Below are positions 19,842-24,678 of a stretch of 34,726 nt of DNA, piece after piece (the first letter of the stretch is position 1; each line of letters begins with the position of its first letter). The notes below the pieces were generated by a model, which had not been told where the DNA came from, ran no database searches, and saw only the letters and a list, made by a program, of their open reading frames with translations. Both the position numbers and the translations under genes were made by a program. Source of the DNA: an uncultured Parvularculaceae bacterium (GTDB lineage: Bacteria > Pseudomonadota > Alphaproteobacteria > Caulobacterales > Parvularculaceae); contig CAJXLJ010000030.1 of the NCBI GenBank assembly GCA_913055785.1, positions 1-34,726 of the forward strand, given 5' to 3'.

Positions 19842-19896
19842 TGTAAAGGAGACTTTACATATGCGTGACGCGCCGGTCTGTCAAGGGTGCTTTACA
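19842..19896 (-). promoter_or_regulatory. Paired-palindrome promoter/operator of the hydrolase gene
   Basis: Two 18-bp palindromes with 7-bp arms and a 4-bp spacer are present: TGTAAAG-GAGA-CTTTACA (19842-19859, perfect) and TGTCAAG-GGTG-CTTTACA (19879-19896, one arm mismatch). Their centres are 37 bp apart. On the minus strand an arm of the upstream palindrome supplies TTGACA (19884-19879), and after a 17-bp spacer TATGTA (19861-19856) overlaps the downstream palindrome. The hydrolase ATG follows about 22 bases after the expected start. This is the geometry of strong repression by a dimeric regulator. Confidence 0.82.
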
Positions 19897-19908
19897 AGCG
19901 TCTCCGCG

Positions 19909-20244
19909 TCAACCCATGCCGGGGACTGCGCCCTTGCCGAGATAGACCTCGATCCCGGCGATCTTGTCGCCTTCGAAGCGGATGAACTCGGCGAGCAGGG
20001 GCTGCGGCGCGACGTTGTGCCGGTAGCGGACCATGAACGCCGGATGCTCCCCGAAGATTTCGAGATCGACCGCCCAGCGGTCTCCCACCGACGGCCAGAT
20101 CGCGTCGAGCATCTTGTCGCGGTCGTTGAAATGGCCGAACGGCGATGAATGAATGAAGTTTGGAGTGAGGATTTTTTCGAGCGTTTCCCGGTCGCGGGTT
20201 TTGAACGCATTGAAATAAGCGCGGATGGTGTCTTCAGGAGTCAC
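19909..20244 (-). CDS. NTF2-like/SnoaL-type protein
   Basis: This 111-residue cytoplasmic protein has a cone-shaped NTF2-like fold pattern: N-terminal helix TIRAYFNAFKTRDRETLEKI, the strand-turn FIHSSPFGHFNDRDKML, and beta strands AFMVRYRHNV and IAGIEVYLG. Superfamily members are small-molecule-binding proteins or isomerases, and no specific function can be assigned. It lies on the same strand upstream of the hydrolase, but the hydrolase has its own promoter in the 81-bp gap. Family confidence is good at superfamily level. Confidence 0.8.
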   Translation of the reverse strand: MTPEDTIRAYFNAFKTRDRETLEKILTPNFIHSSPFGHFNDRDKMLDAIWPSVGDRWAVDLEIFGEHPAFMVRYRHNVAPQPLLAEFIRFEGDKIAGIEVYLGKGAVPGMG

Positions 20245-20313
20245 GGGCGCCGCTCCCCTTGCTGATGCGCGGCGTCAGCATCCATGTTTATTGTGTGATG
20301 TTCAACCTGGCCG

Positions 20314-20775
20314 TTACGCGCAAGGCGAATAGCGCCAGGACTGCGCCTTGCCGCCGTCGATCAGCGAGATCGTCGCTGTCAGCCGCTCGCCCGAGAGGGC
20401 GTAAGTTATTTTCTGCGGATAATCGTGAGCGGCGTTCTCGAAGGTGATAGCGGTTTCGGACGCCGCGCTCTCGGTGAAGGCCGTCGGGCCGTGTCCCCGC
20501 GGATAAGCCTGATAGACAAGACCGTCCGGTCCCGGTTCGATGCGCAACTGTTCGAAGAAGACAGGCGCGCCGTCATGAAGCGTGACGCTGAACCCGAACA
20601 GGTAGCCGCCGGGCGCGGCTGTCCATTGCTCTCGGGTCGCGCCGTCTTCGGACAGCCAGCAGCGGGCGAGCCATTCGGGCGCGCTTGCGTGTTTTTCGGT
20701 TGCGGCGTTCGCCGCGCAAACCGGCGCGGCGGCGATCATGGCGAACATTAAAACGGCGCGTCTGAAGCAAGGCAT
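20314..20775 (-). CDS. Exported DUF6265-type protein
   Basis: This 153-residue protein has a signal peptide (about 1-25, ending CAANAA) and a compact beta-rich domain resembling DUF6265. It includes EWLARCWLSEDG, TREQWTAAPGGYLFGFS and the C-terminal half with TFENAAHDYPQKITY and GGKAQSWRYSP. The WL-G-W start and the HDYPQ-I-Y block are the parts I rely on. The domain is lipocalin-like in appearance and has no known activity. It lies on the minus strand between the AraC regulator and the NTF2-like gene, possibly in one unit with them, with gaps of about 70 bp. Confidence 0.78.
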   Translation of the reverse strand: MPCFRRAVLMFAMIAAAPVCAANAATEKHASAPEWLARCWLSEDGATREQWTAAPGGYLFGFSVTLHDGAPVFFEQLRIEPGPDGLVYQAYPRGHGPTAFTESAASETAITFENAAHDYPQKITYALSGERLTATISLIDGGKAQSWRYSPCA

Positions 20776-20844
20776 ATCGGCCCCCTGTTATGGACAGGCC
20801 TCTCGTAGCGTTTTGGTCGGTTGGCTTCTTGTATCGTTCCGACA

Positions 20845-21642
20845 TCATGGCTGTGTGCGGTTGAGCGATTTCGCCAGCCCGGCGTTCAGCTCCGCCCATT
20901 CGCGGGCGGTGCAGCCGAGAAACCGGCGGAAATCGCGCGCCAGTTGCGGCTGGTCGAAATAGCCGGCGTCGAGCGCCGCGGCGGCCCAGCTTCGGCGCGT
21001 TTCGTCTTCGAGGGCGTCGAAGACGCGCCGGAAGCGGCGAATGGCTGTCAACAGGCGCGGGCTGACGCCGACCTCGGACCGGAAGATGCGCTGGAACTGC
21101 CGTTCGGACATGGACGCCGGCGGCGTGAAAGATTGATTGTCCATGATGCGCATGACGGCGTCGCGCACAGGCGCGAGCGGCTTCGCCTCGCGCATGTTTT
21201 CCTCGACGAATGTTTCGGCGAGGCCGGCGCCGGCTGCAAGATCTCCGGTCTTGCGAACGCGCGTCACGAGTTCGTCCGCCGCCTTTCCATAAAGGCTGCG
21301 AAGCTCGATGCGTTTGTCGGTTATGGAATCCATGGATCGTTTGACGAAGCCCTTCGCGCCGTCCGGGCGGAAGCGCACGCCGATGACGGCGACCTCGCCG
21401 GTCGCCGTGAGCGATAAGGGGCGCGTCAACTGTCCCGCCATGACCGCCGGCGCTTGCGGCGCATCGGCGCCGGTCTCGAGATAGGGCGCGCCCATATGCA
21501 CGATCAGCTCCGGCATTCCGTCGGGCGTGATCGGCTGCACCTCGCATTCGGACGGGGATTGATAGGTCCACACGCACTGGACGAAGGCGGCGAGAGACGG
21601 GCGCGGCGGCCTTTCTTCGTAGAGAATGTCGCGCGTTATCAT
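20845..21642 (-). CDS. AraC-family transcriptional regulator
   Basis: This 265-residue protein has an N-terminal sensory domain typical of the DUF6597 group (FVQCVWTYQSP, PDGMPELIVHMG, VIGVRFRPDGAKGF). A C-terminal AraC DNA-binding domain follows (about 165-255): the first helix-turn-helix at SMSERQFQRIFRSEVGVSPR and the second at AAAALDAGYFDQPQLARDFR. It should be a ligand-responsive cytoplasmic regulator. Start at ATG 21642. It lies just upstream of the DUF6265 and NTF2-like genes on the same strand, which may be targets. Ligand unknown. Confidence 0.9.
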   Translation of the reverse strand: MITRDILYEERPPRPSLAAFVQCVWTYQSPSECEVQPITPDGMPELIVHMGAPYLETGADAPQAPAVMAGQLTRPLSLTATGEVAVIGVRFRPDGAKGFVKRSMDSITDKRIELRSLYGKAADELVTRVRKTGDLAAGAGLAETFVEENMREAKPLAPVRDAVMRIMDNQSFTPPASMSERQFQRIFRSEVGVSPRLLTAIRRFRRVFDALEDETRRSWAAAALDAGYFDQPQLARDFRRFLGCTAREWAELNAGLAKSLNRTQP

Positions 21643-21723
21643 CGGTCCGCCCGCGGCGTTGTCTGCGCCCTTATTCTACCGGGGACCGGCGGGGAACGGT
21701 AGCTGCGCTTAAAAGCCGCCGCT

Positions 21724-22875
21724 TCATCCGAACAGATCGAGCTGCCCTGAAACTTCGGCGGGTACGCGGAAGAGGGTGAGGTCGAGCGGCGCGCGGTCGC
21801 GATTGAAGCCGAGCTTGACGCGCATCGCCGCGTTACGCTGGTTGATGAGCCGCGCATAGGGCGTCTTGATCTCGCCGCCGCGCGACCATTGCGGGTCGTA
21901 ATCGCGCCCGCCGTTCATCTCGCGGATATGGCGCATGATGCGTTTGGCGCGGCTCCGCGCGAACGCCTCGAGCCATTCCTGAAAAAGCGGCGAGACTTCG
22001 AGCGGCAGGCGCAAAATCGTGTGGGCGGAAAAGCTCGCGCCGAGCGCGGCGGCCTTTTCCATGATGGCTTCCATCTCGTCGTCATTGAGCCCCGGGATCA
22101 TCGGGCCGGTCATGATGCCGACCGGCACGCCGGCGTCGCTCAGTTTTTTTATCGCCTCGAAGCGCTTCGCCGGCGCCGAGGCGCGCGGCTCCATCGATCT
22201 TGCGAGCGCCTTGTCCTGAGTGGTGATCGACACCATCGCGCGCGTCAGGTTTTTTTCCGCCATGGGCGTGAGGAGATCGATGTCGCGGGTGATCAGATGC
22301 GCCTTGGTGAGCACCGTCACCGGATGATTGAATTTCGAAAAGACTTTCAGGATTCCGCGCATGATCAGGAAGCGCCGCTCGATCGGCTGGTAGGGATCGG
22401 TGTTGGTCCCCATGGCGATGACGCGCGGTTTATAATGTTTATCGGAGAGTTCCTTCTCCAATAGTTTGGGTCCGGACGGTTTCGCAAACAGCCTGGTTTC
22501 GAAATCCATCCCCGGCGACAGGCCCATATAGGCGTGGGTCGGCCGCGCGAAACAGTAAATGCAGCCATGCTCGCAGCCGCGATAGGGATTGATCGAGCGA
22601 TCGAAGCCCACATAAGGGCTCTTGTTGAAGGTAATGATCTTTTTCGGCGCCTCGAGCGTCACTTCGGTTCGAAGCGGCGGAAGCTCCTCGCCGTCATTGA
22701 CGTCATAGCCGGTCCAGCCGTCGTCGATTCCTTCCTTTTGCTCTTTCTCGTAACGGCCGGAAGTGTTGGAGCGCGCGCCGCGACCTTTCCCCGGGAGGGG
22801 CTCCCCCTTGGCGGCAGGGGCGTCCTCTTTGGGTGGGCGGCGAGGACGAAAGGAAAGGTGTGCGGCGCGCGCCAT
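21724..22875 (-). CDS. SplB-like (PA0069-type) radical SAM protein
   Basis: This 383-residue protein has a radical SAM cluster motif with CxxxCxxC spacing (Cys101, Cys105, Cys108 in YRGCEHGCIYCFARP), preceded by the family block SPYVGFDRSINPYRGC. Further family marks are AMGTNTDPYQPIERR and SITTQDKALARSMEPRA. It belongs to the PA0069 group related to spore photoproduct lyase SplB. A LexA-type SOS box lies 23 bp before the ATG, which supports a DNA-damage role. The substrate of the group is not settled. There is no clear ribosome binding site, and a TGATAG box at 22890-22885 suggests a very short leader. It is divergent from the XRE cassette. Confidence 0.9.
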   Translation of the reverse strand: MARAAHLSFRPRRPPKEDAPAAKGEPLPGKGRGARSNTSGRYEKEQKEGIDDGWTGYDVNDGEELPPLRTEVTLEAPKKIITFNKSPYVGFDRSINPYRGCEHGCIYCFARPTHAYMGLSPGMDFETRLFAKPSGPKLLEKELSDKHYKPRVIAMGTNTDPYQPIERRFLIMRGILKVFSKFNHPVTVLTKAHLITRDIDLLTPMAEKNLTRAMVSITTQDKALARSMEPRASAPAKRFEAIKKLSDAGVPVGIMTGPMIPGLNDDEMEAIMEKAAALGASFSAHTILRLPLEVSPLFQEWLEAFARSRAKRIMRHIREMNGGRDYDPQWSRGGEIKTPYARLINQRNAAMRVKLGFNRDRAPLDLTLFRVPAEVSGQLDLFG

Positions 22876-22898
22876 GGGGTGAGGCTATCACTGAAAGA

Positions 22899-22913
22899 GA
22901 ACAAATCAAGAAC
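22899..22913 (-). promoter_or_regulatory. LexA-type SOS box (GTTC-N7-GTTC)
   Basis: On the minus strand the sequence GTTCTTGATTTGTTC exactly fits the alphaproteobacterial LexA consensus GTTC-N7-GTTC. It lies 23 bp before the ATG of the SplB-like gene and would cover the -35 (GTTCTT, with TGATAG 17 bp downstream). LexA binding there should repress the gene until DNA damage. The match is exact, and the position is ideal. Confidence 0.75.
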
Positions 22914-22936
22914 ATTTTTTCACCAGAATCGTTAAG

Positions 22937-22992
22937 TTGACAAGGATGCTTGACAGGCGGCGGCGGCCTCACTATGTCAAGGATGCTTGACA
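22937..22992 (+). promoter_or_regulatory. Paired-palindrome promoter/operator of the XRE cassette
   Basis: Two 18-bp palindromes are present: TGACAAG-GATG-CTTGACA (22938-22955, one arm mismatch) and TGTCAAG-GATG-CTTGACA (22975-22992, perfect), with centres 37 bp apart. The right arm of the first supplies -35 TTGACA (22950-22955). After a 17-bp spacer TATGTC (22973-22978) forms the -10 and runs into the second palindrome. Transcription should start near 22985, about 48 bases before the first cassette ATG. A regulator bound here would block both promoter elements. The cassette's own XRE protein is the obvious candidate. Confidence 0.85.
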
Positions 22993-24045: not shown

Positions 24046-24219
24046 ATGATGAAAACCACGAGATCATTCTTGAGCGCCCTCGCCATGGGCGTCGCCGTCG
24101 GCGCCGCGATGACAGTCGCGCTGGAAGATGCTGGTGTCGGGATCGCGCTTGGCGCGGCGGCGTTTATCGCTTTTGGCGGCGCGGCGGCCTGCCGCCGGTC
24201 CGGCGGCGGCGCATCCTGA
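24046..24219 (+). CDS. Small glycine-rich membrane protein B1
   Basis: This 57-residue protein starts MMKTTRSFLSALAMGVAVGA (ATG 24046, or 24049 as a close alternative). It begins 2 bp after the XRE stop with AAAGGAG inside the end of that gene. Glycine- and alanine-rich helices (GVAVGAAMTVALED, GIALGAAAFIAFGGAAA) suggest two tightly packed membrane segments of glycine-zipper type. It is paralogous to the gene at 24461. Unlike most neighbours it ends in a basic/Gly tail CRRSGGGAS. No family known to me. Confidence 0.78.
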   Translation: MMKTTRSFLSALAMGVAVGAAMTVALEDAGVGIALGAAAFIAFGGAAACRRSGGGAS

Positions 24220-24262
24220 TGCGGCGTCACATGTTTTTAGACCAGTGCAAGGGAGTAAAAAA

Positions 24263-24445
24263 ATGAAAGCAGTGATCTTGATCGCCAATGCGCTCGTCTG
24301 GGCCGCCGCGATGCTTATCGGCGCCCAGTATTTCGAGGGTCAGCCGATCGGCGAGACCTGGTTCTTGTGGATGATCGTCGGCTGGACGGTTGCCAACGGG
24401 CTGTTGGTCAGCTTTTTCGTCCGCAAGCCGCGGCGCAACGGTTAG
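24263..24445 (+). CDS. Small two-helix membrane protein C
   Basis: This 60-residue protein starts MKAVILIANALVWAAAMLIG and has two membrane helices (about 3-20 and 32-52) joined by a short polar loop, with a basic end FVRKPRRNG. ATG 24263 follows GGGAG with a 7-base A-rich spacer. The longer in-frame ORF upstream is rejected because it runs through B1 in another frame. It lies between the two B paralogs. Its function is unknown, but its conserved place in the cassette suggests a shared membrane complex. Confidence 0.75.
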   Translation: MKAVILIANALVWAAAMLIGAQYFEGQPIGETWFLWMIVGWTVANGLLVSFFVRKPRRNG

Positions 24446-24460
24446 GCGAGGGGGCCGCAT

Positions 24461-24625
24461 ATGAAGTCCCGTAAACATATCGGACAGGCTGTGGGCATGG
24501 GCGTCGGGGTCGGCGTCGCCATGGCGGTGGCGTTGCAGGACGTCGCCGTCGGCGCCGGGATCGGCGCTGCGATTTTCATCGCGATGATGGCGATCGGATC
24601 GCGGCGCAATGGCGAGTCTCAATGA
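24461..24625 (+). CDS. Small glycine-rich membrane protein B2, paralog of B1
   Basis: This 54-residue protein starts MKSRKHIGQAVGMGVGVGVA. It aligns with B1 through AMGVAVGAAMTVALED versus GMGVGVGVAMAVALQD and GIGAAIFIAMMAIG. Hence the cassette contains two duplicated pairs (A1/A2 and B1/B2) around the regulator. ATG 24461 follows GAGGGGG. It ends with the polar tail SRRNGESQ. The next gene (glycosyltransferase) begins about 53 bp later and belongs to a different pathway. Confidence 0.75.
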   Translation: MKSRKHIGQAVGMGVGVGVAMAVALQDVAVGAGIGAAIFIAMMAIGSRRNGESQ

Positions 24626-24678
24626 TGTGAGCCTTGCGGGCGCTGTCGCAACAGGCGCGGCGCCGTTATAAAGGGCCC

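Follow-up and report, generated by a model that had tools for sequence, protein, structure and literature searches.

The window analysed here is the whole 34,726-nucleotide stretch of contig CAJXLJ010000030.1 from an uncultured Parvularculaceae bacterium. It carries an alpha/beta hydrolase gene and, 3 kb away, a cassette encoding two small membrane proteins and a regulator of the XRE family, and paired palindromes lie in the promoters of both. The hydrolase, P0004 (18946..19827, minus strand), has 293 residues, matches Pfam Abhydrolase_6 (E 1.2e-20) and has a hydrophobic N-terminus that by eye resembles a signal peptide. The cassette consists of the 131-residue membrane proteins MP1 (P0002; 23033..23428, plus strand) and MP2 (P0003; 23449..23844, plus strand) followed by the 65-residue CylR2-like regulator P0001 (23846..24043, plus strand), an HTH_3 protein. 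MP1 and MP2 are directly upstream of the XRE gene on the same strand, and the three genes are probably co-transcribed.

Both promoters contain two 18-bp strandless palindromes of the consensus TGTMAAG-N4-CTTKACA with centres 37 bp apart. Upstream of the hydrolase, palindrome 1 (19879..19896, TGTCAAGGGTGCTTTACA) and palindrome 2 (19842..19859, TGTAAAGGAGACTTTACA) match without mismatches, the former contributing a predicted -35 element TTGACA (19879..19884, minus strand) and the latter overlapping a predicted -10 element TATGTA (19856..19861, minus strand) after a 17-bp spacer. At the cassette, palindrome 1 (22938..22955, TGACAAGGATGCTTGACA) contributes a predicted -35 element TTGACA (22950..22955, plus strand), and palindrome 2 (22975..22992, TGTCAAGGATGCTTGACA), again without mismatches, overlaps a predicted -10 element TATGTC (22973..22978, plus strand), also after 17 bp. 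The initial annotation had described this arrangement of paired palindromes, and all four sites are present, except that the one at 22938 departs from the consensus by one mismatch. Its promoter layout, with a -35 taken from one arm, a 17-bp spacer and TATGT(A/C) overlapping the second palindrome, was read in both promoters.

A genome-wide pattern search for such paired sites, which the same annotation had proposed, showed that the 3.26 Mb genome has no site with one mismatch or fewer other than these four, all in the window. Eleven further sites occur at two mismatches; a reversed control pattern is equally frequent, with 12 at two or fewer, hence these are taken as noise. The genome yielded no third pair in a search at 37-bp spacing that allowed up to three mismatches, nor in one at free spacing that used the degenerate exact pattern. 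From the base composition of the window, with positions taken as independent, ~0.6 sites with at most one mismatch and ~1e-7 pairs at one fixed spacing are expected per genome. Within the window alone, four matches at up to three mismatches compare with 1.13 expected, and four were reached in 2 of 100 shuffles. The genome also encodes an XRE paralogue (C23, 48% identity), whose locus (L121) has no site with at most one mismatch and no pair.

Conservation of the operator with XRE homologues

The comparison was based on the best 80 of at least 482 confirmed relatives of P0001 in GTDB genomes; compared loci or regions carry L-numbers and genomes G-numbers. A palindrome with no more than two mismatches lies within 1350 bp upstream of 79 of the 80 homologues (no more than one mismatch in 61, exact in 11). 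The reversed motif was found at 0/80 of these loci and 20 scrambled palindromes of the same composition at a mean of 0.4 and a maximum of 2, while a control region 1.5-2.85 kb downstream of the XRE gene gave 0/73. Pairs, with one site at one mismatch or fewer and the other at two or fewer, are present at 58 of the 80 loci and in none of the controls. The arms are better conserved than the flanking bases, and site-bearing records include ones titled Chloroflexi, Herpetosiphon, Anaerolineae, Bacteroidetes, Planctomyces, Acidobacteria and Rudaea.

Twenty further XRE loci of the host's order were drawn from among the matches listed, with the top 12 rows skipped, 15 taken at rough steps and five chosen by hand. 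Seventeen carry a site with two mismatches or fewer, compared with 0/20 for the reversed control. Ten plasmid-borne homologues (54-69% identity) were picked for taxonomic spread from 25 of 307 records, and include Sporosarcina, Priestia, Paenibacillus, Arthrobacter and the archaeon Halocatena marina. Within 1.5 kb, nine show a palindrome departing from the consensus at two positions or fewer, and five of the ten show one departing at a single position or none, against 0/10 for the reversed motif and a mean of 0.1 (maximum 1) for 20 scrambled palindromes. In the tenth, from Deinococcus gobiensis, a site with one mismatch is located 2.3 kb upstream, before a row of esterase, hypothetical and XRE genes.

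The initial annotation had named genomes with the cassette and without the palindromes as the observation that would count against a shared repressor; they were looked for, and the palindrome accompanied 79 of the 80 closest and 17 of the 20 further loci. As the palindromes precede a matching XRE gene in a wide range of distantly related bacteria and in an archaeon, they are very probably binding sites of the cassette XRE, predicted from sequence, with the hydrolase gene among its targets. At L185, L186 and L226, which encode divergent XREs (41-44% identity to P0001), the operator is shifted to approximately TGTAAA-N6-TTTACA at 37-bp spacing, which suggests co-change of protein and DNA.

Search from the operator alone

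Pairs at a fixed 37 bp were found in 29 of 299 genomes of the host's order and pairs at free spacing in 38 of 299, with none for the reversed pattern. Around places listed by both pattern searches, 59 regions from 48 genomes were searched with a hidden Markov model built from the 80 XRE homologues (E<1e-12). An XRE gene was present in 50 of the 59 regions and a P0004-like hydrolase in eight. Since XRE genes occupy a small part of a genome, finding one within ~3 kb this often is not attributable to chance. Together with the loci above, this comparison supports the claim that both window promoters answer to one shared regulator, identified here as the cassette XRE.

The nine regions without an XRE comprise four with a TraB/PrgY/GumN protein, three with a glycine-rich protein, L178 (genome G005) and L195, which ends at a contig boundary. 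The TraB-family gene stands beside an operator pair with no XRE within ~3 kb at L174, L173 and L236 (genus g5) and at L187 (G183, another family). The L174 protein matches PF01963 (E 2.3e-69) and is 83% identical to that of L173, 82% to that of L236 and 43% to that of L187. The presence of this gene at L187 speaks against the pair there being a chance match. On a Sphingomonas plasmid, a TraB/GumN gene lies 3' of the XRE. An operator pair, again with no XRE close by, precedes the gene for the glycine-rich protein at L175:3137-3991, L172:2274-3125 and L237:552-1169. It has 283-284 residues, hydrophobic stretches and a C-terminus rich in glycine and cysteine, the L172 and L237 proteins being 76% and 77% identical to that of L175; no Pfam match was found for L175 and no NCBIfam match for L175 or L172.

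In G005 the operator pair is kept at the usual cassette position (contig C23, L178:3087-3417), where an 86-residue protein replaces the membrane protein and XRE; the XRE of this genome is on another contig with its own 37-bp operator pair. Together, the G005, TraB and glycine-rich-protein loci point to small putative regulons controlled at a distance. In the cassette of one g5 genome, a membrane protein resembling CAAX proteases (L176:376-1383; Rce1-like, E 1.7e-15) directly follows the XRE.

Spacing and promoter architecture

Spacing could be scored at 73 of the 80 XRE loci. It ranges from 18 to 60 bp, with 32 bp in 18 pairs, 34 bp in 13 and 37 bp in eight. The range led to rejection of 37 bp as an operator constraint, and the earlier suggestion that this spacing is a shared operator feature was not borne out. 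The commonest spacing is 31-34 bp, approximately three helical turns (42/73), making the 37 bp of the window a minority form; the majority spacing puts both sites on the same face and may reflect cooperation. The geometry previously noted is correct, as 37 bp (3.5 turns) places the two window sites on opposite faces of the helix. Helical phase is non-random if loci are treated as independent (mean resultant 0.27, Rayleigh p 0.005), many of them being related Sphingomonadales, and this preference reflects the 42 pairs at 31-34 bp.

TTGACA forms the end of palindrome 1 in 65 of the 73 pairs. A universal -10 element at 17 bp was considered and is seen in part, TAnnnT peaking at 17 bp (9/73) and at 21 bp (11/73). 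In some genomes a third palindrome fills the 37-bp gap, and some, such as G282, have three sites 18-19 bp apart. One promoter of G282 (L202:3087-3140) contains three perfect palindromes that directly adjoin one another at 18-bp intervals.

In 25 of 90 spacers (e.g. L055, L061, L070, L077, L081 and L096), palindrome 1 is followed at a distance of 6-9 bp by the motif GANTC, the CcrM methylation site of Alphaproteobacteria. Approximately two are expected from local density, and shuffled spacers gave a mean of 4.9 and a maximum of 16; TCNGA occurs in 9/90 and six other control pentamers in 0-3. By title and genus, 24 of the 25 spacers are from Sphingomonadales, and the spacers of the window are without GANTC. 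The motif may link the promoter to cell-cycle methylation.

The hydrolase as a recurrent neighbour

P0004-like hydrolases occur at 32 of the 80 XRE loci (30 at E<=1e-24, two weak), and in 28 of these 32 the hydrolase gene comes immediately 3' of the XRE gene in the same orientation, judged from longest-frame starts. Conversely, of the 30 best hydrolase homologues of the host's order, 23 have an XRE no more than 1.5 kb away (22 at E<=1e-15). The other seven comprise the window, G194 and G030, where the XRE is somewhat farther away, and four loci without XRE. Gene order varies, being operator-hydrolase-XRE in G222 and G108 and operator-membrane protein-XRE-hydrolase in G118. In G194, of the same genus, a radical-SAM gene separates cassette and hydrolase, each with its own operator pair at spacings of 37 and 36 bp; the window has the layout of G194 plus three extra genes. 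In G030 an operator likewise precedes the hydrolase. From this linkage and the G194 and G030 layouts, the hydrolase is a recurrent gene of the module which here has its own operator copy. The cassette is flanked by a radical-SAM gene and a gene like that at 24634 of the window, by eye a glycosyltransferase, in 14 loci compared, representing ~10 genomes as some places were fetched twice.

The regulator and the membrane proteins

P0001 scores 62.6 bits against PF01381 (HTH_3), with a cut-off of 23, and is assigned to the XRE/Cro-CI HTH_3 regulators. The nearest solved structure is PDB 9k3w ('Transcriptional regulator, PbsX family'; E 9.8e-24, residues 2-62), for which no describing paper was found in the open-access literature searched. 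Another close solved relative is CylR2 (E 1.8e-12, residues 3-61), whose structure was reportedly presented by Rumpel in 2004. Ser26, Arg27 and Gln28 are identical in 80/80 homologues and Asn31 in 79/80, a stretch which we take from the fold to be the recognition helix. Assignment as a type II antitoxin was rejected, with all scores below NCBIfam cut-offs (Y4mF 47.2 bits vs. 71.65, HipB 23.1 vs. 79, HigA 19.7 vs. 47.7).

MP1 carries the DE motif at D69-E70, and this Asp-Glu pair is invariant among cassette membrane proteins. MP2, which also has the motif, is helical and read as four membrane spans; its model places helices at residues 3-34, 41-48, 51-66, 70-99 and 109-130 with a mean predicted local distance difference test score (pLDDT) of 86.3. 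Neither window copy matches a Pfam family above cut-off, and comparison with PDB folds returned nothing at E<=0.001. Membership of DUF2178 (PF09946) was rejected at 14.2 and 13 bits against a gathering score of 22.8; two of 22 members of the membrane protein set match it at E<=0.1, the best at 0.0051.

Downstream of the XRE, three small hydrophobic peptides are encoded at 24049-24625 of the window, the third resembling the first by eye. The first (24049..24219, plus strand) is a glycine/alanine-rich hydrophobic peptide of 56 residues, with related sequences in the cassettes of same-genus genomes, including L044 (two copies) and L057.

Proposed mechanism and alternative explanations

With high probability, the palindromes are operators of the cassette XRE, which would form an auto-repressing module like CylR1/CylR2 and repress the hydrolase in trans. 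A dimer of the 65-residue protein would bind TGTMAAG-N4-CTTKACA, one site masking the -35 and the other the -10 and start region, so that binding would shut the promoter. The predicted outcome is auto-repression of the membrane protein/XRE operon and repression of the hydrolase gene 3 kb away. The DE-motif membrane proteins probably respond to an envelope or peptide signal by releasing or sequestering the XRE, as has been proposed for CylR1/CylR2; by analogy, they would thereby relieve repression.

Several observations weigh against this interpretation. One of the 80 loci, L101 from Shewanella hanedai, has no site with two mismatches or fewer, and three of the 20 further loci were misses: L239 has no site, L258 has two three-mismatch sites 32 bp apart and L247 consists of only 608 bp of sequence. 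Related loci do not count as independent observations, most of the 80 being Alphaproteobacteria by title, and some records from other groups are metagenome-assembled genomes that are possibly mis-binned. The promoter's own TTGACA forms part of the motif. Co-occurrence at the level of genomes says little, as 265 of the 299 genomes of the host's order have an XRE relative, and the evidence is therefore one of position; all of the support is comparative. A site pair (no more than three total mismatches, within 1.5 kb on either side) accompanies only 7 of the 30 hydrolase loci, making an operator directly before the hydrolase the exception. Lastly, MP1 and MP2 are no more than putative counterparts of CylR1.

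Many XRE proteins both activate and repress, so that P0001 might bind the same sites and act as an activator or in both roles, and the rows of three palindromes in some genomes would allow graded control. This is unlikely, as the sites overlap the -35 and -10 instead of lying upstream of the -35, and at L053, L074 and L111, all Chloroflexota loci, a TATACT -10 is seen by eye with the second palindrome just downstream of it. A regulator encoded elsewhere, with the XRE a mere neighbour, would fit the 9 of 59 operator regions that lack an XRE. That explanation is less likely still, given that the link to this XRE subfamily holds across several phyla and one archaeon and that operators found by pattern lead to it in the remaining 50. 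The identical geometry of the two window promoters might also mean that one promoter was recently duplicated, with no regulation in common. The spacers and flanks of the two promoters are unlike each other, however, and G194 shows the same split arrangement while G030 has an operator before its hydrolase, leaving duplication the least probable of the three.

Relation to known systems and significance

According to PMC3709268, CylR2 of Enterococcus faecalis represses a promoter; its partner CylR1, for which three spans are predicted, is suspected to be a membrane protein, and signalling by the two may not involve a phosphorelay. The operator-XRE module proposed here resembles it in having a single-domain XRE, CylR2 (66 residues) being homologous to P0001, and small membrane proteins encoded beside the regulator. 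It differs from CylR1/CylR2 in having two 131-residue membrane proteins, read as four-span with a DE motif, and in its predicted targets, namely its own operon and an alpha/beta hydrolase. PMC12457610 concerns an XRE of another type. Neither a paper on the family nor an operator or regulon for such XRE proteins was found in the open-access literature searched. A similar layout is seen in LytTR-type pairs, where a DNA-binding regulator and the membrane protein controlling it are encoded together; these use another DNA-binding domain and serve as an analogy only.

A broader interpretation is offered tentatively, as possible but falling short of probable. The DE-motif membrane protein and CylR2-like XRE may constitute a very widespread membrane-signalling module, present in several phyla and a haloarchaeon, with one deeply conserved operator code and scattered envelope-related targets. 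Candidate targets are the alpha/beta hydrolase, the TraB/PrgY/GumN protein, the glycine-rich membrane protein and the CAAX-type protease of the cassette. The TraB-family gene at L187 makes this interpretation more probable.

What is new here is a family-wide operator and small regulons. If correct, these would belong to an uncharacterised system that senses envelope signals or peptides, and its regulons could be deduced from genome sequence. The conserved operator would make targets predictable in many species and CylR1/CylR2-type membrane signalling testable beyond lantibiotic producers.

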